From NCBI RefSeq assembly GCF_937870815.1, contig NZ_CALMZS010000212.1, positions 1-64,000 on the forward strand: DNA of 64,000 bases, read 5' to 3'. Within the stretch, counting starts at the first letter, position 1; the number at the start of each line of letters is the position of its first letter. The DNA is from an uncultured Brevundimonas sp. (GTDB taxonomy: Bacteria > Pseudomonadota > Alphaproteobacteria > Caulobacterales > Caulobacteraceae). The position numbers and the translations under genes are program-made. Shown here piece after piece: positions 54,685 to 57,760 of this stretch. The notes beneath the pieces were generated by a model that was not told the DNA's origin, did no database searches, and worked only from the letters and a program-made list of their open reading frames with translations.

Positions 54685-54814
54685 ACGACGTTCGACAATG
54701 CTGGCCTTTCCGCTCCAGTCATCACACTTTCGCAATCTACGTCATTGATATCGAACGACATCGTCTCGTCGTCAGCGTCCTGAACGCGCCCTGGGAGCGG
54801 CCCGGCGCAGACTC

Positions 54815-54836
54815 GTCTCCGACAGTTTCCGGAGAC
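54815..54836 (+). promoter_or_regulatory. Hairpin that covers the ribosome site of the tail-fibre-like gene
   Basis: GTCTCCG and CGGAGAC pair over 7 bp with an 8-nt loop. The GGAG inside the right arm is the only good ribosome site for the ATG at 54843, so the fold would hide it. The 158-bp upstream region shows no other clear element apart from two GAACGAC strings. Confidence 0.55.
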
Positions 54837-54842
54837 TTCCTG

Positions 54843-56315
54843 ATGAGCGACGACCAGACCGCCCGCCTCGGCCTTCCCTATCTGGCCGCGGGCCAGATGC
54901 AGAAGCATGTGACGCTGAACGAGGCCCTGACCCGGCTCGACGCCGTGGTCCAGACGGCCGTGGTCAGCCGCACCGCGTCGGACCAGCCCGCGGCGCCGGC
55001 GGACGGAGCCCTGTACATCCTGCCCGCCGGCGCGACCGGACCGGTCTGGGCCGGGCAGCCGGCCGGGGCCCTGCTCCGCGCCGAGGCGGGCGGCTGGAGC
55101 GTGGTCGCGGCGCCGGAAGGGCTGATCGCCCTGGTCCTCGATGCCGGAGAAGTGGTCGTCCGCAGCGGCGGCGGTTGGCTGGCGTTGGGCGAACGACTCG
55201 ACGTTGTCCAGGAGTTGACGCGGTTCGGCTTCGGAACCACCGCGGACGCCGCCAATCCGTTCGCCGTGCGGGCCGGCAAGGTTCTCTGGACGGCGCCCGG
55301 ATCGGGCGGCGGCGGCGACCTGCGTCTGACCTTCAACAAGGAAGCGCCGGCCGATGTCCTCTCCCTGCTGTTTCAGAGCGCCTGGGGCGGGCGGGCGGAA
55401 ATCGGCCTGATCGGCGACGACGACCTGAGATTGAAGGTGAGCGCCGACGGGGCGGCGTGGCAGGAGGTCTGGTCGGTCGAGCGGGCGTCCGGCCGGATCC
55501 GCTTCGAACAGGGCGCGACGCGGCGTCTGGTGACGGCGCTGACGGCTGACGGAAGCTACGCCACCCCGCCCTGGGCCCGGACCATTGAGGCCGTCGCCGT
55601 GGGCGGCGGCGGGGGCGGCGGCGGCGGGGCCTTCGGCCCGACCGGGTCGCGGTTCGGCGGCGGCGGCGGCGGCGCGGGGGGCGTCAGCCGGGCGATCTGG
55701 CCCGCAGACCAGCTGGCGACGGGCCTGACCGTGGCGGTGGGGGTCGGCGGAGCCGGAGGGACTGCGGCCGCGGGGGCGGGGGGCGGCGGTTCGGTCGTCT
55801 ATCTCGGCTCGACCGCCCTCCTGATCGCCCCGGGCGGCGGCGGCGGCGGTCTGGGCGGGGCCACGGGCGGAGCGGCCGGCGTCGCCGGCGCGGGGGCGCC
55901 GAATTCCAATGGCGGCGGCGCATCCAGCGTCACCGCGGCGGGCGTGACCGGCAAGAGTTTCGATCGCCCGGACGCCCCGGGCGGCGGCGGCGGCGGCGGC
56001 GGACTCGACGGCTCCGCGACGGCGCGACCCGGCGGAGCCGGCGGCGACGGCGGCGCGCTGTCGGTCAAGGCGGCCGGAGGCGCGGGCGGAGACGGCGCTC
56101 CCGGTCTGGCCGGGACCGCTTCGCCCCTGCCGGCGCTGTACTGGGCGGGAGGCGGCGGCGGCGGCGGGAGCGCCTCGGCTTCGGGCCAGGGTCACGGCGG
56201 CGGCGCGGGCGGTGCGGCCGGCGGCGGCGGCGGCGGCGGAGGGGCGGGGGAGACCGCCGGAGGCGTGGGCGGCGCCGGCGCCAACGGTCGCGTGTGGCTG
56301 ATCGCCGAGGGATGA
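54843..56315 (+). CDS. DUF2793 / glycine-rich phage tail-fibre-like protein
   Basis: The 490-aa protein begins with RLGLPYLAAGQMQKHVTLNEALTRLDAVVQTAV, the DUF2793 signature found in phage and gene-transfer-agent tail proteins. Residues about 60-240 are a beta-rich middle. From about 254 to the end the chain is mostly glycine runs (VAVGGGGGGGGGAFG, APGGGGGGLGG, PGGGGGGGGLDG, WAGGGGGGGSAS) separated by short hydrophobic strands, the style of glycine-rich tail-fibre tips that pack as polyglycine II helices. This suggests receptor binding. It overlaps the next ORF by ATGA and heads the lysis cassette. Confidence 0.8.
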   Translation: MSDDQTARLGLPYLAAGQMQKHVTLNEALTRLDAVVQTAVVSRTASDQPAAPADGALYILPAGATGPVWAGQPAGALLRAEAGGWSVVAAPEGLIALVLDAGEVVVRSGGGWLALGERLDVVQELTRFGFGTTADAANPFAVRAGKVLWTAPGSGGGGDLRLTFNKEAPADVLSLLFQSAWGGRAEIGLIGDDDLRLKVSADGAAWQEVWSVERASGRIRFEQGATRRLVTALTADGSYATPPWARTIEAVAVGGGGGGGGGAFGPTGSRFGGGGGGAGGVSRAIWPADQLATGLTVAVGVGGAGGTAAAGAGGGGSVVYLGSTALLIAPGGGGGGLGGATGGAAGVAGAGAPNSNGGGASSVTAAGVTGKSFDRPDAPGGGGGGGGLDGSATARPGGAGGDGGALSVKAAGGAGGDGAPGLAGTASPLPALYWAGGGGGGGSASASGQGHGGGAGGAAGGGGGGGGAGETAGGVGGAGANGRVWLIAEG

Positions 56316-56476
56316 CCATCATGCCCCGATTCCACACCCCGCTCGCGCCCGTCCTGCTCGACGACGAGGTCCGGGACCTTCCGGGCCGGTTCTCGGAGGA
56401 GGACCTCTACGCCGAGGCGGGGAGCTCCCGCCGGCGCGGCGACCGGCCCTTCGACGAGCAGGAGGATGACCGATGA
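56312..56476 (+). CDS. Small ORF in the lysis cassette, 54 aa
   Basis: The ATG at 56312 overlaps the stop of the tail-fibre-like gene and the stop overlaps the holin-like start, both as ATGA, which supports translation. The product, MTIMPRFHTPLAPVLLDDEVRDLPGRFSEEDLYAEAGSSRRRGDRPFDEQEDDR, is soluble and charged with no recognised domain. It could be a cassette regulator or chaperone; that is a guess. Confidence 0.55.
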   Translation: MTIMPRFHTPLAPVLLDDEVRDLPGRFSEEDLYAEAGSSRRRGDRPFDEQEDDR

Positions 56477-56745
56477 TCGACGCCGTGGACGCTCCCGCCC
56501 CCCCGGCGCCGCTGGCGGAGGGGCGCTGGCTCTGGCGCCGGCTCTATGTCTTCGCCAGCACGGGGGCCGCGTGGCTGCTGCTCGACCGGCTGATCGCCCT
56601 GACGCCGCCGGCGGCGGCGCTTCCGCTGGCCCGGGGTCTGATGGCGCTGCTGGCCCTGACCATGGTCCTCTATCTGGTCGCTCCGACTGCCCAGCAGCTG
56701 ATCGCCAGCCTGCGGTCGCTGCGGCCGCCGCTGGGCGGGGACTGA
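56473..56745 (+). CDS. Holin-like small membrane protein
   Basis: The 90-aa protein has two membrane helices (about 27-45, VFASTGAAWLLLDRLIALT, and 52-74, ALPLARGLMALLALTMVLYLVA) and charged ends. Size, topology and position directly before an endolysin gene fit a class II type holin that would open the inner membrane. Sequence alone cannot separate a holin from another small membrane protein; context carries the call. Confidence 0.65.
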   Translation: MIDAVDAPAPPAPLAEGRWLWRRLYVFASTGAAWLLLDRLIALTPPAAALPLARGLMALLALTMVLYLVAPTAQQLIASLRSLRPPLGGD

Positions 56746-56749
56746 GCCG

Positions 56750-57133
56750 ATGGGCTTTCGACTCTCCACCCGTTCGCTCAGGCGCCTGGACGGCGTGCAT
56801 CCCCGGCTGGTCGCCCTGGCGCGCGAGGCCATCGCCCTCAGTCCGGTGGATTTCATGGTCACCGAAGGCCTGCGGACGCGGGCGCGGCAAGCCGCCCTTG
56901 TGCGCGCCGGGGCCAGCCGCACGAAGCATTCGCGCCATCTGACCGGCCACGCCATCGACGTCGCCGCCCTGATCGACGGCCAGGTGCGCTGGGACTGGCC
57001 GCTGTATCCGCGCATCGCCGCCGCCTTCAAGGCGGCCGCCGTCCGGCAGGGCACGGCCATCGTCTGGGGCGGCGACTGGCCGAACCTGCGCGACGGACCG
57101 CATTTCGAGCTCGACCGGACGGTGTTCCCGTGA
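56750..57133 (+). CDS. Endolysin, M15 L-alanyl-D-glutamate/VanY-type peptidase
   Basis: The 127-aa protein has the metallopeptidase motif SxHxxGxAxD as SRHLTGHAIDVAA and the third ligand region in WPNLRDGPHFELD, with FMVTEGLRTRARQAALVRAGASRTKHS before it. This is the pattern of phage T5-like endolysins and related peptidases that cut the peptide stem of peptidoglycan. No signal peptide is present, as expected for an enzyme released through a holin. It starts 5 bp after the holin-like gene. Confidence 0.88.
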   Translation: MGFRLSTRSLRRLDGVHPRLVALAREAIALSPVDFMVTEGLRTRARQAALVRAGASRTKHSRHLTGHAIDVAALIDGQVRWDWPLYPRIAAAFKAAAVRQGTAIVWGGDWPNLRDGPHFELDRTVFP

Positions 57134-57591
57134 GGACGCCGGCGCTCCTTCGAATCCTGACGCCCGCCGGCTGGACCGTGCTGGTCCTGGCGCTGGTCGC
57201 CGTCGCGGGCGTGGCCGGACGCGGCCTCGGCCTGAGCTGGGATCCGCTCGACCTGTCCGGGCGGCGTCTGCGGGCGGCGGAAGCGCGCGCCTCGGCCGCC
57301 GCCGCCGAGGCGGGCGCGCGCCGGCTCGAGACCGAAGCCATGGTCGATCAGGCCCGCCGCCTCGATCACGCCCATCAACAGACCGTCGCGGTCGAGCGGG
57401 TCACCGCCGTCGCCGCGGCCCAGGCCAGGAACGCACATGACGCCTCCCATCCGCTGGACCCGGCTCGCGCCGATCGGCTTCGCCGCCATGACCGCGAGCT
57501 GTGCCGCCTCTCTCCCGCCGTCTGCGGTCCCGCCAAGGCTGACCCTGCCGCCGGCGGCGGTCAGGCCGTGCCGGCTGGACCGGCTGGCTGA
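57130..57591 (+). CDS. Rz-like inner membrane spanin candidate
   Basis: The 153-aa protein has one N-terminal membrane helix (about 15-32, TVLVLALVAVAGVAGRGLG) and a long periplasmic helical stretch rich in Ala/Arg/Glu (RRLRAAEARASAAAAEAGARRLETEAMVDQARRLDHAHQQTVAVERVTAVAAAQARNAH), the layout of an i-spanin. The start overlaps the endolysin stop. A second frame inside it encodes the Rz1-like partner. The family is too divergent to recognise by residues alone. Confidence 0.68.
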   Translation: MRTPALLRILTPAGWTVLVLALVAVAGVAGRGLGLSWDPLDLSGRRLRAAEARASAAAAEAGARRLETEAMVDQARRLDHAHQQTVAVERVTAVAAAQARNAHDASHPLDPARADRLRRHDRELCRLSPAVCGPAKADPAAGGGQAVPAGPAG

Positions 57592-57760
57592 ATCGCCCAC
57601 CCAGGGCGACCTTGAGGCGGCCTATGTCGCCCGCGGAGCCGCCCTCGTGGCCTGCGAGGCGGCCCGCGAACTGGCCGTCGCGACGCTGCTGGCCGAGCGG
57701 GAGATCCAGGATCGCTGGCGCGAGGCCGGGACGCCGCGTCGCCGCCTCTGGCCGTGGTGA
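57437..57760 (+). CDS. Rz1-like outer membrane spanin candidate (overlapping frame)
   Basis: This 107-aa ORF starts inside the Rz-like gene in another frame and runs 169 bp past it. The N-terminus APIGFAAMTASCAASLPPSAVPP looks like a lipoprotein signal with a weak lipobox (TASC) followed by a proline-rich stretch, as in Rz1 o-spanins, then a helical tail (LEAAYVARGAALVACEAARELAVATLLAEREIQDRWREAG). An overlapping, frame-shifted lipoprotein ORF right after an i-spanin-like gene is the classic Rz/Rz1 arrangement. Confidence 0.62.
   Translation: MTPPIRWTRLAPIGFAAMTASCAASLPPSAVPPRLTLPPAAVRPCRLDRLAESPTQGDLEAAYVARGAALVACEAARELAVATLLAEREIQDRWREAGTPRRRLWPW

Follow-up and report, generated by a model that had tools for sequence, protein, structure and literature searches.

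A tail-fiber and lysis operon conserved in Brevundimonas as a probable accessory locus of its gene transfer agent

Gene content of the cassette

We analyzed a 64,000-nucleotide (nt) stretch of DNA from a Brevundimonas sp., hereafter the window (contig NZ_CALMZS010000212.1 of assembly GCF_937870815.1; C212 in our contig labels), which carries at positions 54843 to 57760 a compact cassette of a tail-fiber gene and phage-type lysis genes, probably an accessory operon of the Brevundimonas gene transfer agent (GTA). A first-pass annotation made from the sequence alone had placed in this interval a tail-fiber-like protein, an open reading frame (ORF) of 54 amino acids (aa), a holin-like protein, an M15 endolysin and overlapping spanin candidates. 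All of these ORFs were confirmed on the forward strand. The first gene (54843-56315) encodes a fiber protein of 490 aa, in which a DUF2793 domain (PF10983, E 3.8e-23) is combined with a glycine-rich region (PF21722, Gly_rich_2, E 2.2e-8). It belongs to the tail-fiber family of RcGTA, the gene transfer agent of Rhodobacter capsulatus; DUF2793 is the RcGTA tail fiber and co-evolves with the GTA genes (PMC10883770).

The endolysin gene (56750-57133) encodes an M15 L-alanyl-D-glutamate endopeptidase of 127 aa. The protein matched the endolysin family phrog_465 of the PHROG collection (E 2.6e-57) and PF13539, and it carries the motifs SxHxxGxAxD and DxxHFEL; its closest relative with a solved structure is the L-Ala-D-Glu peptidase ChiX (PDB 5OPZ, E 2.2e-36). 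The preceding gene (56473-56745) codes for a putative holin of 90 aa, the hydrophobic segments of which fit two membrane spans. It had no family match in the profile libraries, and the assignment draws on hydropathy, on the conserved motif LYLVAPTAQQL, and on the matches of a holin profile, which retrieved weak homologues from the holin slot of prophage lysis cassettes in Caulobacter and in a genus that we label g4. Downstream of the endolysin lie a candidate Rz-like i-spanin with a GTG start and an N-terminal membrane span (57130-57591; phrog_214, E 0.003, and hydropathy) and a candidate Rz1/LysC-like lipoprotein o-spanin with the lipobox TASC (57437-57760; phrog_456, E 1.9e-4; PF23793 LysC, E 8.6e-4). 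The o-spanin gene, read in the +1 frame, starts within the i-spanin gene and ends beyond it, and most loci keep both genes. The spanin profile scores are weak but mutually consistent. The predicted succession of holin, endolysin, i-spanin and embedded o-spanin corresponds to a canonical phage lysis cassette, in which the holin and spanin calls combine weak scores with gene position.

The genes are tightly packed. The ATGA overlaps that had been ascribed to the whole cassette were found between the fiber gene and the 54-aa ORF and between this ORF and the holin gene, whereas the holin and endolysin genes are separated by a 4-nt gap and the endolysin and i-spanin genes overlap by GTGA. The acidic 54-aa protein (56312-56476) is conserved in Brevundimonas cassettes with the pattern LLDxEAWDxPxRLTxxDLF...WRR...DDPEDDR. 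In 46 of 63 loci an ORF ends where the holin gene starts, and in 39 of those 46 its C-terminus is strongly acidic. No match to this protein was found near the fiber genes of other genera in the loci examined; among these loci it forms an unnamed conserved family confined to Brevundimonas cassettes. We would guess at an antiholin or at a chaperone or partner of the fiber.

The region upstream of the fiber gene (54685-54842, forward strand) corresponds to a segment that, in relatives, is a promoter in fixed register with the promoter of the GTA core. At its 3' end, from about 54817 to 54842, an inverted repeat (CTCC...GGAG) overlaps the Shine-Dalgarno sequence of the fiber gene and is kept in nearly all relatives; it may serve translational control. 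A structured RNA was considered for this hairpin and rejected: 96% of the alignment cells pair, yet there is zero compensatory change or covariation.

Chromosomal setting and conservation in the genus

Judged by eye, the other likely genes of the 64 kb resemble chromosomal housekeeping genes (a mur/fts cluster, smc, ppdK, ychF, pth, prs, recN, cca and flagellins), and the order of the neighbors is kept in relatives, in agreement with the earlier placement of the cassette between chromosomal genes and a flagellin locus. Terminase, portal, capsid and integrase genes had been reported as absent from the window. Whole-genome searches for the GTA families DUF2460 and GTA_TIM and for the terminase gave no match on the window contig, and inspection of the window by eye revealed no gene for a tail tube, sheath, baseplate or capsid; this part of the claim held, and for integrases no search aimed at them was made. 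Adjacent structural genes and a terminase, which would mark an intact or recent prophage, were not found around the cassette, where the neighbors are housekeeping genes and the position is conserved.

We surveyed 112 Brevundimonas genomes. A phrog_465-family endolysin was detected in 102 of them; DUF2793 was found in 107, and 96 carry the GTA marker DUF2460. The fiber and endolysin genes lie no more than 3 kb apart on one contig in 72 genomes, and in many of the remaining genomes contig ends that fall within or close to the glycine-rich fiber gene separate the pair. The gene order cca, endo/exonuclease (opposite strand), DUF4112, fiber, 54-aa ORF, holin, endolysin, spanins, flagellins is kept across approximately 50 named Brevundimonas loci; the spanins were undetected in several loci, including genomes with and without the GTA core. 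A scan of named genomes returned matches mainly from Brevundimonas, at 67-92% identity. In one complete Brevundimonas genome (G282, contig C1), the fiber domain and the endolysin lie 84 kb apart (2469417 and 2553398), as if split by a rearrangement or insertion.

Outside Brevundimonas, the Caulobacterales fiber gene was found without these lysis genes alongside in 20 loci. In most of the Caulobacter loci examined, it is followed by a UPF0016-like membrane protein and hydantoinase-like genes, as judged by eye, and in other genera the phrog_465 matches and the fiber are on different contigs. Cassette synteny is a trait of Brevundimonas and not of Caulobacterales as a whole, so that the synteny proposed for testing across the order was recovered only in this genus. 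Endolysins 61-73% identical to that of the window also occur in Marichromatium and in a Comamonadaceae bacterium, in loci without other cassette genes (L114, L115, L116, L118).

These data bear on the possibility that the cassette is part of a tailocin or a recently inserted piece of a prophage. Elements of this kind commonly end in a block of fiber and lysis genes; however, the structural genes named above were not noticed in the window, the position between cca/DUF4112 and the flagellins is kept genus-wide, and the phage matches are distant, the nearest covering 45% of the fiber at ~40% identity and reaching at most 62% identity for the endolysin. We regard this origin as extremely unlikely, and a recent prophage insertion in particular is refuted by the genus-wide synteny and the lack of structural neighbors. 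The first-pass annotation had named occurrence in one strain only, or a place beside other prophage genes, as observations that would speak against a GTA-related locus; neither was made, and what we found is a conserved locus of the genus.

The genes of the cassette differ in their evolutionary constraint. The median pairwise ratio of nonsynonymous to synonymous substitution rates (dN/dS) was lowest for the endolysin (0.22), followed by the housekeeping gene cca (0.33), the fiber N-terminus (0.39), the holin (0.48) and the overlapping spanins (0.56-0.57); the endolysin is under stronger constraint than cca. In two genomes the M15 enzyme is replaced. G233 (locus L138) has a GH19-type endolysin between the holin and the spanins (phrog_181, E 1.8e-49; Pfam GH19, E 1.3e-8), and G266 (L139) has a CHAP/NlpC-like enzyme between the fiber and the spanins, with a tail-lysozyme family as its top PHROG match (E 7.6e-30). 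Both genomes retain lipoprotein and membrane spanin-like ORFs after the swapped enzyme. The occupation of one slot by unrelated cell-wall enzymes would be hard to explain unless selection acts on the cutting of the cell wall.

Partial deletions were found in three genomes, affecting the endolysin in G242, a complete genome without GTA, the genes from fiber to endolysin in G222, and the endolysin and spanins in G231. Together with the undetected spanins, such losses would fit a functionless remnant of a former prophage or GTA ancestor that was kept by chance. This explanation, already disfavored, seems very improbable, since the synteny across the genus, the low dN/dS and the replacement of the endolysin by other cell-wall enzymes point to a maintained function of the cassette.

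Relation to the gene transfer agent core and its promoter

The first-pass annotation had suggested a GTA satellite locus in a Caulobacterales host and, as a check, a genome-wide search for a capsid cluster. This search identified an RcGTA-type core on another contig of the same genome (C32), with genes for the portal, prohead protease, HK97 capsid, connector, tail tube, distal tail protein, hub, NlpC protein and megatron. The distal tail protein belongs to the Rcc01695 family (DUF2460/TIGR02217), the hub (TIGR02218) is shortened, and the megatron scored 1391 bits with NF048004 against a cut-off of 800. The fiber gene on C212 is unlinked from this core. In other genomes, the distance between a core gene and the cassette is 45-94 kb, with the same orientation (G007, G027, G047, G275, G032, G201, G217, G269, G277), or more than 1 Mb (G071, G286).

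The core promoter of Brevundimonas contains a conserved element, GCCTGAGGACGCTGGTCCGCTATGGTTTGGGCATG, recognizable in 29 genomes, and is homologous to the C. crescentus core promoter with its GafZ element and -10 region. We slid the cassette promoter of each genome along its own core promoter and calculated the identity over 140 nt at each lag. One register stands out, with a mean identity of 0.371 compared to 0.271 (standard deviation, 0.012) at 463 other lags (z = 8.3, 26 genomes), and the same register ranks first among 110 lags in 20 of 27 genomes. The pairing of promoters within genomes was better than all permuted pairings (0 of 2000), although, the genomes being related, this result should not be read as a formal probability for independent events. 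The similarity lies upstream and fades toward the -10 region, where the two promoters differ. In C. crescentus, the upstream region is where GafY and IHF act, at the core promoter and at ~18 accessory promoters, whereas GafZ binds the core promoter only (PMC11150451). Because accessory promoters in that species use the upstream GafY/IHF region and not GafZ, the pattern of the cassette promoter is the one expected of an accessory GTA promoter, and by analogy the Brevundimonas sites may bind GafY. A search upstream of the cassette for the IHF and CtrA consensus sites gave zero exact matches. As a proxy for the GTA activator we also tried DUF6456; it was present in 110 of the 112 genomes, including those without GTA markers, and was uninformative.

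Based on gene identities, gene coupling, genus-wide synteny, purifying selection, endolysin swaps, the presence of the GTA core, and the promoter register in most of the genomes tested, all of them properties read from sequence, we consider it likely that the cassette is an accessory operon of the Brevundimonas GTA for the fiber and for particle release. The suggestion of a satellite locus is thereby supported at the sequence level. Upon activation of the GTA, transcription of the operon would start from a promoter sharing the upstream activator region of the GTA-core promoter, and the operon would be co-expressed with the core. It would supply the DUF2793 tail fiber, to be incorporated into the particle, and a phage-type lysis set. 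In the proposed sequence of events, the holin would permeabilize the inner membrane, the M15 endopeptidase would cut the L-Ala-D-Glu bond in peptidoglycan, and the i-/o-spanin pair would join the inner and outer membranes, so that the producer cell would burst and release the particles.

Several observations weigh against this assignment. In the genome of the window, there is no terminase in its usual slot between ykgJ and the portal gene (C32, 10860-11565), and the cassette and core promoters resemble each other only weakly (identity 0.31, rank 9 of 110 lags). The association of the endolysin with the GTA across the genus is modest (90 of 96 genomes with the marker compared to 12 of 16 without it; Fisher p = 0.035, uncorrected for phylogeny). 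Linked fiber and endolysin genes are retained in 9 of the 16 congeners without DUF2460, and the cassette genes are full length in several genomes with neither DUF2460 nor the megatron, among them B. basaltis and the complete genome G294. Conversely, G222 and G231 have the GTA marker and have lost the endolysin. Applied to Caulobacter as a positive control, where only five related genomes have both promoters, the promoter method gave no clear register. The megatron domain was still matched, from fragment to full length, in 5 of the 16 congeners without DUF2460, and the persistence of the cassette without the core could reflect either recent loss of the core or a second use of the cassette.

The terminase is likewise missing from its usual slot in G007, G071 and G027, and it is present there in G219, G226, G186, G213, G254 and others. 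In the genome of the window, a stand-alone terminase gene with a small upstream ORF is located on contig C211 (13274-15147), between the apparent rsmA and gmk genes, and is ~63% identical to the core terminases of relatives. This species may carry an altered GTA, or one with failing packaging, which leaves the interpretation at the level of the genus unaffected. A similar stand-alone terminase was observed in G277, G269 and G230, and the copies in B. basaltis and G007 are each split into two frames.

Known release systems and the exit of particles

The cassette resembles RcGTA in the fiber family and in the location of its lysis genes away from the core. GafA of R. capsulatus binds both to the GTA promoter and to that of the separately encoded lysis cassette (PMC6363796). 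The fiber locus and the lysis cassette of RcGTA are separate and both away from the core, whereas Brevundimonas joins fiber and lysis genes, including an M15 endolysin and both spanins, in a single operon; the difference considered here is one of organization. The R. capsulatus lysis genes have no homologues in C. crescentus according to Gozzi et al. (PMC9632790). The C. crescentus agent, CcGTA, shares with Brevundimonas a homologous core cluster, a homologous core promoter (CGCTGG-TAT element) and a fiber in a separate locus. It differs in that release proceeds via the CARD-NLR-like LypABC system, which is required for lysis in a species where no holin or endolysin was found (PMC13236601), and in that the Caulobacter fiber loci have no adjoining lysis genes. 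Of 11 GTA-bearing Caulobacter species, 4 carry the lypABC genes (PMC13236601).

Lysis cassettes of Caulobacterales prophages also have a distantly homologous holin followed by spanins, but they are located among other phage genes and carry other endolysins. Such prophages of Caulobacter and of genus g4 (L225-L232) have distant relatives of the cassette holin beside other endolysins and Rz/Rz1-like genes. The possibility that the Caulobacter holin matches mark a hidden GTA lysis locus was rejected, as their neighborhoods are prophage-like.

The main functional alternative is a Type 10 secretion system such as ChiWXYZ of Serratia marcescens, a cassette with a holin and a homologous L-Ala-D-Glu endopeptidase in one operon. 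The Brevundimonas cassette could accordingly be a domesticated phage lysis cassette that serves non-lytic or altruistic protein release independently of the GTA. Such a role would agree with ChiX (PMC5778951) being the closest solved relative of the endolysin, with the presence of a holin and a peptidoglycan hydrolase in one operon, and with the persistence of the cassette in several genomes without GTA core markers. However, the first gene of the operon belongs to the GTA fiber family and does not encode a secreted enzyme, the promoter is in register with that of the GTA core in most of the genomes tested, and the same endopeptidase family is frequent in ordinary phages. ChiWXYZ, in turn, lacks a fiber gene, has another genomic setting and exports a chitinase, not particles, and no secreted cargo gene linked to the Brevundimonas cassette was recognized. 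We therefore consider a Type 10-like role unlikely, and particle release for the GTA remains our preferred interpretation.

A predicted GTA accessory operon joining the fiber to a full lysis set is, in the genomes sampled, specific to Brevundimonas, and we found no description of it in the open-access papers searched. On balance, we favor the view that one ancestral GTA is released by unrelated machines in two sister genera: in Brevundimonas by a fiber-linked holin-endolysin-spanin operon in which the enzyme was exchanged at least two times in one slot, and in some Caulobacter species by the immune-like LypABC. Release would then be a replaceable plug-in, with its promoter co-evolving with the core promoter in each genome.

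Regarding the exit of GTA particles in Caulobacterales, no holin or endolysin is reported for C. crescentus, and lypABC is patchy among the Caulobacter species with a GTA (PMC13236601). A complete and conserved lysis operon attached to the GTA fiber in a neighboring genus would offer a release system open to direct testing. Its occurrence suggests that GTAs gain and lose lysis functions around a core that is retained, and co-evolving promoters may provide a way to find further GTA accessory genes from sequence alone.

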